A stretch of DNA of 56,573 nucleotides from Pseudomonadota bacterium (lineage in GTDB: Bacteria > Pseudomonadota > Alphaproteobacteria > Caulobacterales > Caulobacteraceae): contig JAKBBV010000015.1 in assembly GCA_021808285.1 (NCBI GenBank), forward strand, positions 1 to 56,573, in the 5' to 3' direction. Of this stretch, positions 23,753 to 35,546 are shown one piece after another. How positions within the stretch are numbered: position 1 is the stretch's first letter; each line of letters starts with the position of its first letter. A program made the position numbers and the translations under genes. The notes beneath the pieces were generated by a model. The model made no database searches. It was not told the origin of the DNA and saw only the letters and a list, made by a program, of their open reading frames with translations.

Positions 23753-24258
23753 GTGGCCTCCACCTTCGTTCGGCGACTCAGAACGGGGAGAAGAGCCGGG
23801 TTAGCGCAGCAGGGGGGACCTCGCGCAGCAGGGAGAAAACAGGGTCGAAGACTGCCCCGAGGATGCGATCGATTTTGGCGGTCATGAAGGCCTCGTTGTG
23901 CAATGCAAAATTGCGAGTGCGAGATATGCGTTGCGGCGCAATAATTCAAGGGCGCTCGAGGCTCGCCTCGTTTAAGGAACTCGCCGCCTTGAAATCGCGA
24001 CTCGCGCACGCGGCGGCTCGCCGCCTGACGGCCTCCCGTTTCCAGCGTTGAATTGTTAAATTTTTCTGGCATATTGTGACGGCCGGCACGTGTCGGGTGA
24101 AATGCGGAAGCTGGGGATTCGGTCGATGGGCCAAGTCCATCAATCGATTCTGGTAGAGATTAACAGGTCGGGTGAAGGATCGGTGTCGATCCCAAAAGTC
24201 GTTGGCGGACGATAGATCTGATGACTGGCTTCGCCCCACTGGCTTGGAGAGGAAGGTC
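23753..24258. other. Intergenic region upstream of the OmpR-type regulator
   Basis: About 500 bases without a convincing gene. A short plus-strand frame at 23863-24051 has no ribosome binding site. Two small inverted repeats are visible: GCAAT-GCAAA-ATTGC near 23900 and TTGC-GGC-GCAA near 23930. The segment 24045-24080 is AT-rich and contains the promoter candidate listed separately. I see no tRNA-like or terminator-like structure. Confidence 0.5.
24048..24075 (+). promoter_or_regulatory. Candidate sigma-70-type promoter of the response regulator gene
   Basis: TTGAAT at 24048-24053 and CATATT at 24070-24075 are 16 bases apart, in the only AT-rich patch of this intergenic region. The site is about 180 bases upstream of the presumed TTG start. 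Both boxes match four of six consensus bases or better. It is a sequence resemblance only. Confidence 0.35.
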
Positions 24259-24972
24259 TTGAGCCGCATCGCCATCGTCGAAGACGAAGCTGACGCGCGG
24301 GATCAGCTTACTGAGATCTTGTCTCCCCGGCACAAGGTTGCGGCCTTCGCCGACGGCTCCTCATTCCTGAGGGCGCTTCATCGCGACACCTTCGATCTGG
24401 TGTGCGTCGACTGGGCTTTGCCGGACATGTCTGGCCAGGATCTGGTCACCCGAATCCGATCCGGGACGCTGGCCAAGACCGTCCCGATCATCTTCGTCAC
24501 CTCGCGCAGCGGGGATGATGACCTGGTCACGGGCCTGGTCTCGGGCGCCGACGATTTTGTCTCCAAACCCATCAGGGCCCCGATTCTCACAGCCCGGGTT
24601 GAAGCCCTGTTGCGTCGATCCACGCCGGAGTCGACCGAGCAGATCGAGACGTACGAGCCCTTCATCTTCGACCGCCTGCGCGAGACGGTGACCCATGGCG
24701 ATGAAGAACACACGCTCACGAGCAAGGAGTTTGCCCTCGCCCTGACCTTGTTCCGCAATATGCATCGTCCCCTGGCGCGGATTTACCTCATGGAGGAAGT
24801 CTGGGGCGCCGGGGCCAATGTGTCCTCGCGCACCCTCGACACCCATATCTGCCGACTGAAGAGCAAGCTCGGCCTTAACCCGCAAAACGGGTTCAATTTC
24901 GGGCCCGTCTATGGCTTCGGCTACCGGTTGGAGCGCGCCGGCGAGGTCGAGACGGGATTGAGCGCTGCCTGA
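24259..24972 (+). CDS. OmpR/PhoB-family response regulator
   Basis: A 237-residue two-domain regulator. The receiver shows IVEDEADARD (acidic pocket), the phospho-accepting Asp in VCVDWALPDMSG, FVTSR and the Lys in FVSKPIR. The C-terminal winged helix contains LTSKEFALALTLF and SSRTLDTHICRLKSKLG. The start is probably the TTG at 24259 (LSRIAIVEDE), with AGAGGA close upstream; the 29 earlier codons do not look like a receiver. It directly precedes and overlaps the CHASE2 kinase gene, so the two form a two-component pair. Confidence 0.88.
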   Translation: MSRIAIVEDEADARDQLTEILSPRHKVAAFADGSSFLRALHRDTFDLVCVDWALPDMSGQDLVTRIRSGTLAKTVPIIFVTSRSGDDDLVTGLVSGADDFVSKPIRAPILTARVEALLRRSTPESTEQIETYEPFIFDRLRETVTHGDEEHTLTSKEFALALTLFRNMHRPLARIYLMEEVWGAGANVSSRTLDTHICRLKSKLGLNPQNGFNFGPVYGFGYRLERAGEVETGLSAA

Positions 24973-27355
24973 CATAGCCAATCAAGGGGCGGGCCGCGGG
25001 GGGGCTGAGCAGGGCCGGGAGATCCCCTTCGCGGCTGACAGGCGCCGTCTCTGGCTGGAGTGGAGCGCCGCTGCGGTCTTTTCCGCCGTTCTTCTGGCTA
25101 CGCTGATCTGGACCGGGGCCACCGGACGGCTAGACGACGCCGTTTATGACTTCTCGATCAAGCTTCACCAGCTCAAGCCGCGTTCCGACATCGTGATCGT
25201 GGCGGTCGACGCCAAAAGTCTGCAGGACATTGGACCCTGGCCCTGGCACCGCGCCACCCAGGCGGAGCTTGTTCGCAAGGTGGGTGAACAGCATCCCCGA
25301 GCGATAGCTTACGATTTCCTAGTGACGAATTCGGAATCTCAGGCGGCCACTGTAGCATTTCGCGATGCCATGATGATGGCCCCTGTGTTTCTTGGCACAT
25401 ATCGCAATCCTGCACACACGGATCGTCCATGGCTCACTTATGCTCCTCTTCCATTAACAGCTGCAGTTGCAGCCGGATTGGGGCCTATGGATCCGGATAT
25501 GGACAACTTGTCCGTTGTTCGTCGAACATACTTGTTTCAGGGGCAGAAGGATCACCTTGTGCCTCTCGCAATTCTTCAGATGGCGAGGCTGGCGGGTGCG
25601 GGAGAGGGGCGAAGCGGAGATGAATACCCGATGCGCGGAGGCGAGGACCCGCTTTACCGATCAAACGAAATGCTTATTCCGTATGTAGGACCTCCCAAGA
25701 GCTTCATTCAGATTTCTGCATCTGATGTTTTAAATTCAAAGATCAAAGATAATTTTTTTAATGGAAAATTTATCCTCATCGGTCCCGCCTCTCCTGAGCT
25801 GCTAGACAATTTTCAAACACCCACCTCATCGGTTTCTGCAATGCCAAGCGTGGAGATACAGGCAAATATATTAAACGCTATTTTAAATAGTAATCGCGTA
25901 TATTCTGCTCCGCGCTCACTTATATTTATTGTTTCTATGTCTATGGTCGGGATTCTGCTCCTCGCCCTCGTCCGCCTCGGACCGCGCCAAAATCTCTGGC
26001 TCTCGGCCGGTCTGGCCGTGATCCCCCTGGCAATCTGCGTGCTTGGGGTGGCCCTGCGATGGTTCTGGGTTCCCCCCTCCCCCTATCTGACGACCCTGAT
26101 GATCATCGTTCCCTATTGGGGCTGGCGCCGGCTCAACGCCGCGAGTGTCTACTTCGCGCGGGAAATCCGCGCCCTGGAGGCCGAGAGCGGCGTCGATGCG
26201 CTCGGAGCGCGGAGGCTGCCGGTGGGCGGCGATGTGGTGCTCCAGCAGATGACTCTGTTGGAGGACGCCAAGCGCCGGATCTCCGATCTGCGCCAGTTCG
26301 TGGATGACATGCTGGCGAATTTCCCCGACCCTGTTCTCGTTGTGGACCGGCAGGGTCGGGTCGCCCGCGTCAATGCCGCGGCCGAGGATCTGGCGCGGGA
26401 TCTGCAGGCCTCCGTCGTGGCCGGTGCGCCAGTCACGGACCTTCTCAACCTCATCGGAGACGGCGGCGGAGATGCCTCTTGGCCGCCGCCCGACAACGCC
26501 AACCGTGAGGGTGAGGCGCCGATCGTCCGCGCGGGATCTGAGAATCGGGCTTTCGAACTGCGATTCACCCCGACGCGAGACGCTTCGGGCGAGGCCAGCG
26601 GCTGGATCGTCCACCTTGCGGACGTGACGCCCTTGGTCTCAGCGATGCGCCAGAGAGAGGAGGCCCTCCAACTCCTGTCCCACGACATGCGTTCGCCCCA
26701 GGCGGCGATCATCGCGATCCTGGATAACCCCGAATTCAAGAAGACGCCGCCGGGTCTGCGTGAACGCATCGAGGGCCAGGCGCGGCGAACCCTCGAACTG
26801 GCCGATTCCTTCGTCCGTTTGGCCCAGGCGGAATCCGCGCAATATGATTTTCAGCCAATCGATCTCACCCTGATTGTCCATGACGCCACGGACGCGGTCT
26901 GGCCCCTCGCCAGTTCCGCCGACGTGAGGGTCGTCTTTGAGCCCGACGAAGCCGAATATGTGGTCTGCGCCGATCGCCGCCTTCTCACACGCGCCCTGAT
27001 CAATCTGCTGGATAATGCGGTGAAATTCAGCCCTAAAGGCAAGATCGTTTCATGCCGGCTGTCCAAAGATAGCCTTGATGGCGTCGAAGCTGTCACCTGT
27101 GAGATCGCCGATAGCGCCGGCGGCATGGCCCAGGCTCAGCTCGCAGAGCTCTTCCACCGGTTCGCCACCTCTCGCGAGGATGTCAGCGGCTCCCAGGGCG
27201 TTGGTCTGGGCCTCGCTCTGGTTCACACTGTCGTGACCCGTCACAACGGCCGCATCCGGTGTGAGAGCGCCGAGGGCGAGGGCACTGTATTCACGGTCAC
27301 CCTGCCGATCCATCAGGACGTAGGCGCGGAGGCGCCGACCAGCGCGGCGGCCTGA
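24965..27355 (+). CDS. CHASE2-domain sensor histidine kinase
   Basis: An integral membrane kinase of up to 796 residues: an N-terminal helix (SAAAVFSAVLLATLIW), an extracytoplasmic CHASE2 domain, about three helices (25915-26130), a PAS-like region, and a kinase core with LSHDMRSPQAAI, N-box LINLLDNAVKFSPKG and GVGLGLALVHTVV. The G1 box is degenerate (DSAGGM). The frame continues upstream of the first GTG (25193) to the stop at 24959, and the extra part holds the first helix and the CHASE2 beginning, yet contains no ATG, GTG or TTG. The CTG at 24965, overlapping the regulator's stop, is my best start. Positions 25300-25950 are AT-rich, unlike the rest. Confidence 0.8.
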   Translation: MPDIANQGAGRGGAEQGREIPFAADRRRLWLEWSAAAVFSAVLLATLIWTGATGRLDDAVYDFSIKLHQLKPRSDIVIVAVDAKSLQDIGPWPWHRATQAELVRKVGEQHPRAIAYDFLVTNSESQAATVAFRDAMMMAPVFLGTYRNPAHTDRPWLTYAPLPLTAAVAAGLGPMDPDMDNLSVVRRTYLFQGQKDHLVPLAILQMARLAGAGEGRSGDEYPMRGGEDPLYRSNEMLIPYVGPPKSFIQISASDVLNSKIKDNFFNGKFILIGPASPELLDNFQTPTSSVSAMPSVEIQANILNAILNSNRVYSAPRSLIFIVSMSMVGILLLALVRLGPRQNLWLSAGLAVIPLAICVLGVALRWFWVPPSPYLTTLMIIVPYWGWRRLNAASVYFAREIRALEAESGVDALGARRLPVGGDVVLQQMTLLEDAKRRISDLRQFVDDMLANFPDPVLVVDRQGRVARVNAAAEDLARDLQASVVAGAPVTDLLNLIGDGGGDASWPPPDNANREGEAPIVRAGSENRAFELRFTPTRDASGEASGWIVHLADVTPLVSAMRQREEALQLLSHDMRSPQAAIIAILDNPEFKKTPPGLRERIEGQARRTLELADSFVRLAQAESAQYDFQPIDLTLIVHDATDAVWPLASSADVRVVFEPDEAEYVVCADRRLLTRALINLLDNAVKFSPKGKIVSCRLSKDSLDGVEAVTCEIADSAGGMAQAQLAELFHRFATSREDVSGSQGVGLGLALVHTVVTRHNGRIRCESAEGEGTVFTVTLPIHQDVGAEAPTSAAA

Positions 27356-29142: not shown

Positions 29143-29386
29143 TGAGACTAACGGATGATCTCGAGGGTTAATGACCGTTAAAATGCCAGTAGTTGTCGGT
29201 CTCCTGGTGAATTTGGGGTCTATTCTACTCAAGAAAACTGGGCCTCGGTTCTGGTTAATTCGTGTTTTTGGGCGAGTTTGTCCAAAAATAGCGGACGAAA
29301 ACGAACCGGTAGCGGCGCAGTAAACTTCGGTTAACAGTTTGGAACATTCTGATTCTTAACTTTTGTCGCAAGATCGGAGAGTAATT

Positions 29387-29689
29387 ATGTCGAATTTTAA
29401 TCTTAATTCTGACGCCAGCGCTGAAGGCGAACTTGATCTGGGCATCCGCGCGGTGAGCAGCGGTCGGAAGCGCATCGTCTTCTCAACTGGGTCGGCCAGC
29501 GCAGCTCAGCGCATCGTTTTCTCGACTGGGTCGGCCAGCGCAGCTCAGCGCATCGTTTTCTCAACTGGGTCGGCCAGTGCAGCTCAGCGCATCGTTTTCT
29601 CAACTGGGTCGGCCAGTGCAGCTCAGCGTATCGTTTTCTCAACTGGCAGCGCCGGCGTGCGTAAGGAACGGCTCGCCCTCGCCGCCTAA
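29387..29689 (+). CDS. Repeat-core precursor peptide of a putative RiPP
   Basis: A 100-residue peptide started by an ATG with GGAG seven bases upstream. Residues 1-28 form an acidic leader-like part (MSNFNLNSDASAEGEL to SSGRK). Residues 29-93 are five tandem 13-residue units: four RIVFSTGSASAAQ and one RIVFSTGSAGVRK, then a short basic tail (ERLALAA). The units are rich in Ser and Thr, without Cys, so oxazole/oxazoline-type or other modifications are conceivable. All nucleotide differences between the four full units are synonymous. The SagB-type dehydrogenase begins 42 bases downstream. I do not recognise the sequence from any characterised peptide family; the RiPP role is inference from architecture and neighbour. 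Confidence 0.8.
   Translation: MSNFNLNSDASAEGELDLGIRAVSSGRKRIVFSTGSASAAQRIVFSTGSASAAQRIVFSTGSASAAQRIVFSTGSASAAQRIVFSTGSAGVRKERLALAA
29471..29665 (+). repeat. Five tandem 39-bp repeats inside the peptide gene
   Basis: Units start at 29471, 29510, 29549, 29588 and 29627, with no spacers. Units 3 and 4 are identical at the DNA level; units 1 and 2 each differ from them by two synonymous bases; unit 5 is divergent in its second half. The period is exactly 13 codons, so copy changes keep the frame. Confidence 0.97.
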
Positions 29690-29731
29690 AGCGGCTTGTC
29701 AGGAGGCCGGGTCTCCAGGCAATGAGCGCGC

Positions 29732-30796
29732 ATGCGCGTCAGGAGATCCGGCAGCCTCGTGATCTTGTTGGAGGGCGAAGACCTCGTCTTTCACAACTAT
29801 CTCGCCCAGAGCACGTTTCTGGCCAACCCCCAGGCCTTGGAGATCGTGCGCGCGGTGAGCGATTGGACGGACCTGGACGCGCTGAGCGCGCGGTTCCCGG
29901 GCTATTCGAAAGGGTCACTCCAGGGCGCCATATCCGATCTGGCGACCCTGGGGGCCTTAGTGATCGAAGGCGACGAGGAGGCTGAGGCCGATGCGCGCTT
30001 TCAGCGCGAGTGGCTTTGGGGGCCCTTCGCCGCCGCCTTCCACCACGCCACGCGCGTCGGGTCATTCATGAGCGAGGCGTCGGCCGTGGAGATGCTCCAG
30101 GACCGGGCGCACTTCACCCCCTCGCCGCCGCTCTATCTGACCAATTCCGACCCGGCGAACGACATCTCCCTGCCCGTTCGCAATGAATATGGCGAACCCT
30201 TCGCCACCATGTCGCGCCGCCGAACGCACCGCGCCTTCAGGCAGGCCCCGCTCTCGCTCCTGGAGATCGCGGATTGTCTGCTCTTCTCCATGGCGATCAC
30301 CGCGGTGATCGAAGACCCGGAGGTGGTGGACCTTCCGCTGAAAATGACCCCCTCAGGCGGTGCGAGGAACCCCTATGAGGCCTATGTCGCGGCGCGACGG
30401 GTCGAAGGCCTGGAGCCTGGCGTCTATCACTACTCAGCCATGGAGCGGACTTTGGGACGAGTTGGCGGCCCGCCACCCGCGTTCGGCGCGCTGCTGGCCG
30501 GCCAGGACTGGGCGGACGATGCTGCCGCCCTCATCTTCCTGGTGGCGAACTTCGAACGCACCATGTGGAAATACCACGACCCGATGGCCTACCGCGTGGT
30601 CGCCGTGGAGGCGGGCCACATCGGCCAGAACATCATGCTGACGGCGACCCATCACGGCTTTCTCGCCAATCCGACCGGAGCCATGGACTTCGAGGCGGTG
30701 GAGGCAACGCTCGGCGTCAGCGGGCCAACCAAGGGCGTGCTCTATTGCCTCATCCTTGGCCGGCCGGGCCCGCTGGAGACCCAAGTCCCCGCCTGA
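29732..30796 (+). CDS. SagB/ThcOx-type FMN dehydrogenase, putative peptide-maturation enzyme
   Basis: A 354-residue protein. Residues 1-85 look like a small winged-helix domain similar to peptide-recognition (RRE/PqqD-like) folds. Residues 155-345 form a nitroreductase-fold flavin domain with RRRTHRAF (FMN phosphate), TPSGGARNPYEAYV, PGVYHY and EAGHIGQNIMLTA, all typical of SagB-type azoline dehydrogenases. The Lys-Tyr pair reported as catalytic in azole-forming dehydrogenases is seen at 280-281 (WKYHDP). Such enzymes oxidise azolines to azoles on RiPP precursors. A stop at 29723-29725 limits the start to the ATG at 29732, which has a poor ribosome site. No YcaO or transporter gene adjoins. 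It is convergent with gyrB, four bases away. Confidence 0.85.
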   Translation: MRVRRSGSLVILLEGEDLVFHNYLAQSTFLANPQALEIVRAVSDWTDLDALSARFPGYSKGSLQGAISDLATLGALVIEGDEEAEADARFQREWLWGPFAAAFHHATRVGSFMSEASAVEMLQDRAHFTPSPPLYLTNSDPANDISLPVRNEYGEPFATMSRRRTHRAFRQAPLSLLEIADCLLFSMAITAVIEDPEVVDLPLKMTPSGGARNPYEAYVAARRVEGLEPGVYHYSAMERTLGRVGGPPPAFGALLAGQDWADDAAALIFLVANFERTMWKYHDPMAYRVVAVEAGHIGQNIMLTATHHGFLANPTGAMDFEAVEATLGVSGPTKGVLYCLILGRPGPLETQVPA

Positions 30797-30800
30797 GGCA

Positions 30801-33227
<2,427 letters not shown>

Positions 33228-34370
33228 CTAGTCATCCACCAGGAAAAGCCGCGACGCGTCCACGCGGACGCCCAGGGCGCGGCCTCTGAGGCCATCAAAC
33301 AACGAGTCGTCGGTGCCGGTGAGAAAGGCCTGCAGGCCCAGGTCGGCGATCTCGTCAAACAGCGCCGCCCTCCGGACCGGGTCCAGGTGCGCCGCCACTT
33401 CATCCAACAACAATATAGGAGTCGGGGCCGAATGGTCACGGGAAAGTCGCGCCGCCTGGGCCAGGATGAGATTGAGGATCAGAGCCTTTTGTTCGCCCGT
33501 GGAGCAATCCTGCGCGGGCCGGTCGCGTTCAAGATGGACGACGGCCAGGTCGCCGCGATGCGGTCCGCTCAAGGTTCGTCCCGCCGCCTTGTCGCGTGCG
33601 CGGGAGTCCGATAGCGCGACGGCCAGGTCACTCCTGATCTCGCTCTCCGATCGGCCGCCCAGCGCCTGACGCTCCCACTCTCCTGTCAAGTCGACACGCG
33701 CGTGGGGAAACGCGCCGCCATTGCGGGCGTCGATCTCTTGGACAAGTGACGTCACCGTGCGCGCCCGAGCCACGGCCAGCGCCGCCCCCGACTCCGCCAT
33801 CCGGGCCTCAAGAGCGGAAAGCCAGGATAGGTCTGCACGCTCCTCCGCCAGCAACCGGACACGTTCCCGAAGCGCACGCTCATAAGCCATCGCGACCGCG
33901 CCATGGGTCGGCTCTGCAGCCAGGACGAGGCGGTCAAGAAAGCGCCGACGCTCGGCCGGAGATTCAAGGAAGAGGCGGTCCTGCGCCGGGGTGAGCCAGA
34001 GGGGACGGGCGAAGTCCGCCAGTCTCGAGGGGGCGACGGGCTCTCCGTCAATTCGCACTGCGCGCCGACTGGCGCCCGGGACCTCCGTACCGACGCCGAC
34101 GGTATAGCGATCGCTCCCCACACGTAGGTCGACCGACACCGCCCAGGCGCCCCCACCCGCGGCCTCACCGGAGAGACGCCGCCCTATCTGTTCCAGCGCC
34201 GCACCGCGCAGGCCCCGCCCCGGCGACAAAAGGCTGAGCGCTTCAAGAAGGTTGGTCTTGCCGGCCCCATTGGCCCCGAACAGGAACACCGTCCGCCCGC
34301 AGCAGGCGAGCTCCGTCGTGTCATAGGCCCGAAAATTGCTCAGTCGCAGCCTCTCGACGGCGGAGCGCAT
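33228..34370 (-). CDS. recF: DNA replication and repair protein RecF
   Basis: A 380-residue SMC-like ATPase that loads RecA with RecO and RecR at gaps. It has the Walker A motif [14 protein letters not shown], an ABC-type signature region ([17 protein letters not shown]) and Walker [13 protein letters not shown]. The ATG at 34370 starts 39 bases after dnaN. The gene ends exactly before the gyrB start. RecR is encoded earlier in the window. Confidence 0.97.
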
Positions 34371-34409
34371 AGGTCTTCCCGATGTGTCGCGACGCGGACC
34401 CTGAAACGG

Positions 34410-35546
34410 TCAGGCGCGAAGCGGCATGAGCACGAACTGTGACGCCGCATCCGTGGGATCGAGCACCAGAACCGGGTCCAACATCGCCGTCTGAGCCGCG
34501 CGGTCGGCGAAGCGAAGTTCGATCATCTCGGCGCCCACCTGGGCGCTGACATCCAGAAGATAGCGGGAATTAAATCCGATCTCGAAGGGCGGGCCGTCAT
34601 AGTCGGCCTCGAGCTCCTCCTGCGCCTGCCCCGTTTCCATGTTTCGCACCGTGAGCACGAGTTTGCCGGGCTCGACCGACATCTTCACCGACCGGCTTTT
34701 TTCGGAGGAGATCGTCGCCACGCGGTCGACAGCCGCTGCGAAGATGGCGTTATCGGCGGTCAGGATCCGGCCATTGCCTTGTGGAATGACGCGCTTGTAG
34801 TCGGGAAACGATCCATCGATCACCTTGGAGGTGAGCGAGGCCCGACCGAAATCGAACCTTACTTTTTGCGGGCTGAACTGGACGAGAAGAGATTCGCCCG
34901 CGTCCTCCATGAGGCGCCGGGCCTCCTGCACGGTCTTACGCGGAATAATGACGCCCGGAGCCCCTGCAGCGCCCTCTGGCGCAGGCATATCGGCCATAGC
35001 CAGGCGGTGACCGTCGGTCGCCACGGCGCGCAGCACCGCCCGGCCATCCTCGATGATCGTGTGCAGATAGATGCCGGTGAGATAGTAGCGGGTCTCCTCG
35101 GTCGAAATGGCGAATCGCGTGCGATCGATAAGACGAATCAGCGAGGCGGCGTCGACTGTGACAGGCGCCGACAGACCGTCGGTCGGCATGGCGGGAAAAT
35201 CACCCGCCGGAAGGACAGGAAGGTTCACCTTATATCGTCCGGCGCGCACCTGCAGGCGCGGGTCCTCACCAGTGTAGCTGAGGGACACCTCCGCGCCCTC
35301 AGGCAGTTTGCGGACGATCTCATATAGCGTGTGGGCCGGCGCCGTGATCTGACCAGGCATCTCGACATCGGCGTCCGTGTGGTCGACGATCTCCATGTCG
35401 AGGTCGGTGGCCGACAGGGACAGGCCCTCCGGTCCGGCCGACAACAGAACGTTGGAAAGAATCGGGATCGTGTTTCGGCGCTCCACCACGCTTTGCACGT
35501 GACCGAGTGCCTTCAACAGCGCCGCCCGTTCGATGGTCAGTTTCAT
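34410..35546 (-). CDS. dnaN: DNA polymerase III beta sliding clamp
   Basis: A 378-residue three-domain clamp that tethers polymerase III to DNA. The start MKLTIERAALLKALGHVQSVVERRNTIPIL is the usual N-terminus, and the end VLMPLRA is the typical clamp C-terminus. It is the first gene of the dnaN-recF-gyrB run. No dnaA is present; the 229 bases upstream hold no gene and no clear DnaA-box cluster, so I do not call an origin here. Confidence 0.97.
   Translation of the reverse strand: MKLTIERAALLKALGHVQSVVERRNTIPILSNVLLSAGPEGLSLSATDLDMEIVDHTDADVEMPGQITAPAHTLYEIVRKLPEGAEVSLSYTGEDPRLQVRAGRYKVNLPVLPAGDFPAMPTDGLSAPVTVDAASLIRLIDRTRFAISTEETRYYLTGIYLHTIIEDGRAVLRAVATDGHRLAMADMPAPEGAAGAPGVIIPRKTVQEARRLMEDAGESLLVQFSPQKVRFDFGRASLTSKVIDGSFPDYKRVIPQGNGRILTADNAIFAAAVDRVATISSEKSRSVKMSVEPGKLVLTVRNMETGQAQEELEADYDGPPFEIGFNSRYLLDVSAQVGAEMIELRFADRAAQTAMLDPVLVLDPTDAASQFVLMPLRA

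Follow-up and report, generated by a model that had tools for sequence, protein, structure and literature searches.

The azoline oxidases ThcOx/CyaGox, McbC and SagB act together with YcaO. Here, we analyse a locus encoding an enzyme of this type on contig JAKBBV010000015.1 of a member of the Caulobacteraceae (GCA_021808285.1; the window is the whole stretch analysed, 56,573 nucleotides): A SagB/ThcOx-type flavin mononucleotide (FMN) dehydrogenase is encoded directly downstream of a peptide with five repeated units, and the two are very probably the maturase and the precursor of a ribosomally synthesized and post-translationally modified peptide (RiPP). The dehydrogenase has the FMN domain, the Lys-Tyr motif and, in its model, the fold of the azoline oxidases, whereas the YcaO with which those are partnered was not found in its genome.

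The partnership with YcaO is also stated in the accessible part of a 2025 preprint (PMC12636437), which describes the YcaO-less pfl RiPP of Pseudomonas: There, the nitroreductase domain of PflD converts the Phe in ...AAIFDQ... to Z-dehydrophenylalanine, to its authors' knowledge the first dehydrophenylalanine in RiPPs. The same text proposes that other YcaO-less nitroreductases form other dehydroamino acids, and it reports that PosD, a relative of PflD, was inactive in E. coli. In the available part of PMC7726476, the gene that occupies the position of PosD in Os17 is annotated as encoding a SagB-type dehydrogenase domain protein; judged from the gene order, Os1351 of that paper should be PosD. 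Our locus resembles pfl, as described there, in combining a nitroreductase-family enzyme with a RiPP locus without YcaO, and the PflD peptide has an Ile before its Phe. The two differ in that PflD has a fused MNIO domain (Pfam finds none in the window enzyme), modifies a single-core peptide at one Phe, and is encoded together with a HEXXH enzyme and transporters; this comparison follows the published description of PflD and not its sequence. Cyclodipeptide oxidases provide a second chemical precedent (PMC11760959, accessible part); NdasCDO and AlbAB differ from the window enzyme in being two-subunit filaments, in acting on cyclodipeptides and in using no leader. The TvgA/TvgB poly-cyclopropylglycine RiPP, according to the accessible part of PMC9062424, is similar in its short repeated core, its one oxidising maturase and the losses of 2 Da in the repeats, but it involves a radical S-adenosylmethionine (SAM) enzyme, TVGG repeats and a cyclopropane product. 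In our literature search, no paper was recognised as describing the precursors presented here.

A repeat peptide gene accompanies the dehydrogenase

The sequence-only reading of this DNA had placed both open reading frames (ORFs) correctly: a 100-residue peptide and, 42 bases behind its stop codon, the ATG of the dehydrogenase. It had described five tandem units of 13 residues; the number holds, but the conserved part of the unit comprises nine residues, RIVF[SA]TGSA, and is followed by a variable four-residue spacer. In the window, the peptide starts with MSNFNLNSDASAEGELDLGIRAVSSGRK, continues with five RIVFSTGSA units and their spacers (SAAQ four times, GVRK once) and ends with ERLALAA; four of the repeats are identical (RIVFSTGSASAAQ), and the fifth reads RIVFSTGSAGVRK. 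TRF at its default score detected a single tandem array in the window (29469-29646, period 39, 4.6 copies, 96% matches). The GGAGAG ribosome-binding site of the gene is also found 5' of the precursor at the related loci L009, L011 and L014, and L010 has GGAGAA; L013 carries another sequence at this position, and L012 is cut by a contig end.

Units 1 to 4 vary at third codon positions only, and every change is synonymous. In a comparison that took in every unit of the window and of G001, a relative whose enzyme is 87% identical, the ratio of non-synonymous to synonymous changes (pN/pS) was 0.09 within species and 0.20 between them for the nine core codons, and 0.74 and 0.62, respectively, for the four spacer codons, the unit comparisons not being independent of each other. 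By these ratios, the core codons are under purifying selection and the spacer codons much less so. The synonymous differences between units, the low pN/pS of the cores and the presence of a gene at the same place in all enzyme-bearing genomes of the genus argue that the repeat ORF is a real gene.

Among the 16 genomes of the genus, seven encode a full-length dehydrogenase: the window genome, G001, G002, G008, G010, G012 and G014; six of the relatives are publicly recorded as Caulobacteraceae metagenome assemblies. A partial and weak match in G013 (36% identity) was not counted, and neither was G255, the one further match, again weak, that a search of 390 genomes of the family gave outside the genus (E 1e-10 or better). 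At all seven loci, a peptide is encoded directly upstream of the enzyme, and this conservation, together with the selection on the cores, supports the precursor-plus-maturase layout proposed before. The precursors carry one to five cores (window 5; G001 and G014 4 each; G012 and G002 3 each; G010 2; G008 1), and all seven have the leader motif [ED][LM][DE]L[GE][IV], in agreement with the earlier idea of a multi-copy core behind a short leader. With the precursor sequence as query, only G001 and G012 were clear relatives; the other precursors were reached via the enzyme.

The G008 gene is cut by a contig end at the leader start and was excluded from the unit counts, which cover 21 units at six loci. 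All of these contain R-[IM]-[VLP]-[FWY], the aromatic residue being Phe in nine, Trp in three and Tyr in nine units, and the single core of G008, TPWGSM, has the aromatic residue without Arg. Thus, across the seven loci the constant feature of the core is the aromatic residue (with Arg in six loci) rather than Ser, Thr or Cys. The residue that follows it is Ala in 14, Ser in five and Cys in two of the 21 units, which does not support the oxidation at Ser or Thr that had been suggested. Cleavage between Gln and Arg was not upheld either, since the spacers vary among loci (SAAQ, GVRK, AANQ, GSSK, SSAQ, GAKR, QSNS, QSNP, GSAK).

The enzyme and its predicted leader-binding domain

With 92.2 bits, the dehydrogenase passes the cut-off of the SagB domain model TIGR03605 (78.4), as do all 12 enzymes tested, itself included; the assignment to the SagB/ThcOx-type FMN enzymes therefore stands. 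Its best NCBIfam match is TIGR04511, 'putative peptide maturation dehydrogenase' (8.1e-45), a family whose membership had been considered for it; its score of 153.5 bits stays below the cut-off of 240, as do those of all 12 enzymes (133-159 bits). TIGR04511 is not named in the literature searched. The Lys-Tyr motif, presumably catalytic in azoline oxidases, is kept as Trp-Lys-Tyr. This triplet is invariant in all 11 aligned enzymes and aligns with the WKY of CyaGox (5lq4).

The predicted fold of the first approximately 80 residues resembles a RiPP recognition element (RRE): Among the matches listed in the structural comparison, the top ones are RRE-bearing RiPP enzymes, and a family missing from these matches may still be similar. 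TigE, MibB, MccB and NisB are RRE-bearing enzymes. All four have entries in the list of PMC12710340. In the phylogenetic tree, the enzymes with multi-core precursors group together (seven sequences, 100/99), as do those with short peptides (three sequences, 100/99); the tree does not settle the order among the multi-core, short-peptide, Bacteroidota and NRPS-like (nonribosomal peptide synthetase) sequences and comes with a long-branch warning.

Relatives outside the genus

In the family of Jiella, the enzyme was found in 18 of 394 genomes (E ≤1e-60). A scan for ORFs of 18-45 residues with a ribosome site, at most 300 bases upstream, revealed at 17 of the 18 loci, Jiella included, a peptide of 25-36 residues with a C-terminal aromatic residue followed by two or three residues (examples are FFSQGMHYNKR, AFVSKGALFNKR and FVKPGMIFDKR). 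Dinucleotide shuffles of these stretches gave an expectation of 0.005 loci for this pattern, which was written once the peptides had been seen. The peptides keep the C-terminal aromatic residue and have no Arg at the corresponding place. Seven pairs of them were compared: the five close pairs show mostly synonymous changes, and the two with L096 more amino acid changes. The exception is L101, where a 104-residue ORF of MHHP-rich repeats (1118-1432, reverse complement) lies upstream of the enzyme. A helix-turn-helix regulator like that of Jiella is encoded upstream at 15 of the 18 loci, Jiella included. The DNA of L086 is identical to the record 'Roseateles sp. XES5' (L069), in whose incomplete PLSDB gene table the peptide is absent. 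This record, Betaproteobacteria by name and flagged UNVERIFIED_ORG, is DNA of G1266, grouped in the family of Jiella, and is probably mislabelled.

The enzyme of Filimonas and Pedobacter, 35% identical, is encoded behind a peptide of 65-66 residues that contains GG and ends in ...INLIAC or ...VNVIAC. According to Pfam and NCBIfam, the Filimonas cluster codes in addition for a Flavoprotein-family (PF02441) enzyme, which we assume could be EpiD-like, a C39 peptidase-exporter, a LanB N-terminal domain, and a radical SAM/SPASM protein near RiPP maturase models yet below their cut-offs; the Pedobacter counterparts are 39-84% identical. This is an unusual mixture of maturation enzymes around a SagB-type enzyme. 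At E 1e-40, a search on the side of the Sphingobacteriaceae that started from Pedobacter matched two of 251 genomes, Pedobacter being one of the two.

In phages, the search yielded a single partial match (30%), and six of the 33 plasmid records with matches were examined. Two Rhizobium plasmids (L070:5540-5881, L071:5533-5874) encode a 113-residue protein upstream of the dehydrogenase; SMPFVKPALHVH near its end resembles some micropeptide cores. A search of the class gave 19 loci, of which 11 were inspected and showed no convincing precursor; this is a weak check because in about half of the 11 a neighbouring frame had been taken in place of the dehydrogenase.

Which reaction does the enzyme catalyse?

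Sequence analysis shows the gene pair, the leader motif and the selection on the cores, predicts an RRE fold and detects no YcaO in the genome, and the evidence points to a leader-guided oxidation of the core. We propose that the leader with its ELDLGI-type motif would be bound by the dehydrogenase's own N-terminal RRE domain, and that the enzyme with its FMN would desaturate the C-alpha/C-beta bond of the core aromatic residue, Phe here and Trp or Tyr in the relatives. The predicted mass change is -2 Da per core and -10 Da at most for the window precursor; proteases or exporters encoded elsewhere in the cell would then release short peptides. A nitroreductase without YcaO and a kept core aromatic residue, the combination of a PflD-type dehydro-aromatic RiPP, are both found in the window genome. 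Taken as a whole, chemistry included, the reading as a minimal RiPP locus with RRE-guided FMN desaturation of the core aromatics has, in our judgement, slightly more in its favour than against it. Somewhat more tentative, and a little short of an even chance, is its extension to a RiPP family with multi-core precursors in the Caulobacteraceae and micropeptides of 25-36 residues in the family of Jiella. In these RiPPs, aromatics would be desaturated by a stand-alone SagB-type enzyme with a fused RRE and without YcaO, and one precursor could carry as many as five residues of dehydro-Phe, -Trp or -Tyr.

The precedents of PflD and of the cyclodipeptide oxidases, as far as the accessible parts of PMC12636437 and PMC11760959 describe them, lead us to place the dehydro-aromatic residue ahead of an oxidation at Arg or at another site of the core. 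In the latter case, the RiPP pair would be real, and the reaction would give dehydro-Arg, affect the residue after the aromatic one or join two side chains. The invariant Arg of the 21 units, the Cys behind Tyr in both cores of G010 and the Bacteroidota peptides, which have no such aromatic motif, would fit; however, the G008 core and the Jiella-family peptides retain the aromatic residue without that Arg, and the characterised YcaO-less nitroreductase acts on Phe (PMC12636437), so that we regard oxidation at another site as rather unlikely. It is improbable that the neighbouring cytochrome P450 (27480-28691) acts as a second tailoring enzyme and that the product is also cross-linked or hydroxylated: In the window and in G001 and G010, the P450 gene sits between a sensor kinase gene and the precursor, but P450s 65-75% identical to it occur in a further 11 genomes of the genus, seven of them without the dehydrogenase, and in neither G014 nor G002 does it adjoin the pair. 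A dedicated role in tailoring was set aside on this distribution.

Several observations weigh against our proposal: The enzyme of Sinorhizobium medicae (36%) is encoded in an NRPS-like cluster among genes for AMP-binding, HpaB-like and phosphopantetheinyl transferase (PPTase) proteins, and no peptide was seen there or at the Rhizobium leguminosarum locus; the Rhizobium and Priestia loci are no clear fit; and the NRPS oxidase BmdC has an RRE-like fold as well. The dehydrogenase might thus act on a small molecule or a carrier-bound substrate, with the repeat peptide as an unrelated neighbour, which we consider very improbable given the peptide adjoining the enzyme at seven of seven genus loci and 17 of 18 Jiella-family loci and the selection on the cores. 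The Sinorhizobium cluster indicates that RiPPs need not be made by every relative. Relatives without a peptide, named beforehand as an observation that would speak against the pair, are therefore present at a distance and absent from the genus. Finally, classical azole chemistry would require a YcaO elsewhere in the genome that cyclises Ser, Thr or Cys of the core, the window enzyme oxidising the azolines. The SagB domain and the Lys-Tyr motif are compatible with this, and G002 and G014 each encode a YcaO (PF02624) away from the pair; yet precisely in these two genomes Ala-Ala follows the aromatic residue in all seven units, and the search of the 16 genomes detected no YcaO in the window genome (G000, 97.75% complete), G001, G008, G010 or G012. 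For the window genome, azole chemistry was rejected on this basis, and we give it hardly any credence.

Neighbouring genes

The CHASE2-PAS histidine kinase encoded upstream probably controls the pair. All seven genomes with a full-length dehydrogenase have a relative with at least 50% identity, and all nine others lack one; the chance of this would be 1 in 11,440 had the threshold been fixed beforehand, and the 50% line was drawn after the table had been seen, the next matches having 42-47% identity. The kinase gene immediately precedes the pair in G014 and G002; in G008, kinase and pair are found on two contigs, each close to a contig end, and in G012 they are on separate contigs, with approximately 1.4 kb upstream of the precursor free of the kinase. 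The adjoining response regulator may be its partner; in six of ten other genomes with a match, the regulator adjoins a paralogous kinase instead. Six genomes of the genus have this paralogue, which has kept the response regulator as its neighbour, and no repeat-core peptide was recognised next to the paralogue in the five stretches read. Perhaps a duplicated kinase was recruited to the peptide locus (24172-27355).

On the other side (30801-35546), the gene that faces the dehydrogenase is gyrB, behind which lie recF and dnaN, as judged by eye without a family search; the same holds for G012, and none of these genes was seen in the compared stretches of G014, G002 and G010. A separate observation concerns contig C122 of G013, where a YcaO is encoded about 1.3 kb from a SagB-like fragment, which may be a RiPP locus of the classical azole type within this genus.

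Table 1. Positions of the features in the window and at related loci (locus handles precede the positions outside the window).
Feature	Position	Strand	Basis
Response regulator (receiver and Trans_reg_C)	24172..24972	+	Pfam
CHASE2-PAS sensor histidine kinase, proposed regulator	25193..27355	+	Pfam
Ribosome-binding site GGAGAG	29376..29381	+	direct reading
Putative multi-core precursor gene, 100 residues	29387..29689	+	ORF with ATG 29387, TAA 29689
Leader motif ELDLGI, proposed recognition sequence	29429..29446	+	motif class in 7/7 precursors; predicted binding
Core unit 1, RIVFSTGSA and spacer SAAQ	29471..29509	+
Core unit 2	29510..29548	+
Core unit 3	29549..29587	+
Core unit 4	29588..29626	+
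Core unit 5, RIVFSTGSA and spacer GVRK	29627..29665	+
SagB/ThcOx-type FMN dehydrogenase, 354 residues	29732..30796	+
RRE-like putative leader-binding domain, fused, residues 1-80	29732..29971	+	predicted fold
Trp-Lys-Tyr 279-281	30566..30574	+	alignment
Jiella-family micropeptides	L065, L086-L100, L102; starts 118-239 bases before locus position 1501	match orientation
Filimonas cluster	L017:7641-17056
Pedobacter cluster	L018:7575-17050
Sinorhizobium medicae plasmid cluster (AMP-binding, cobalamin-dependent, dehydroquinate synthase II, HpaB-like, PPTase genes)	L072:1-7841

Implications

If our proposal is correct, the SagB-type enzymes go beyond the oxidation of azolines: A YcaO-less branch would act directly on ribosomal peptides and desaturate their aromatic residues. 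The natural cores with Phe, Trp and Tyr would provide a set of substrates ready for use, and two genes may suffice for the system. As the neighbouring micropeptides are short enough to be missed by gene callers, the family of these SagB relatives may be under-counted. The gene pair is indicative of a previously unstudied type of peptide natural product.
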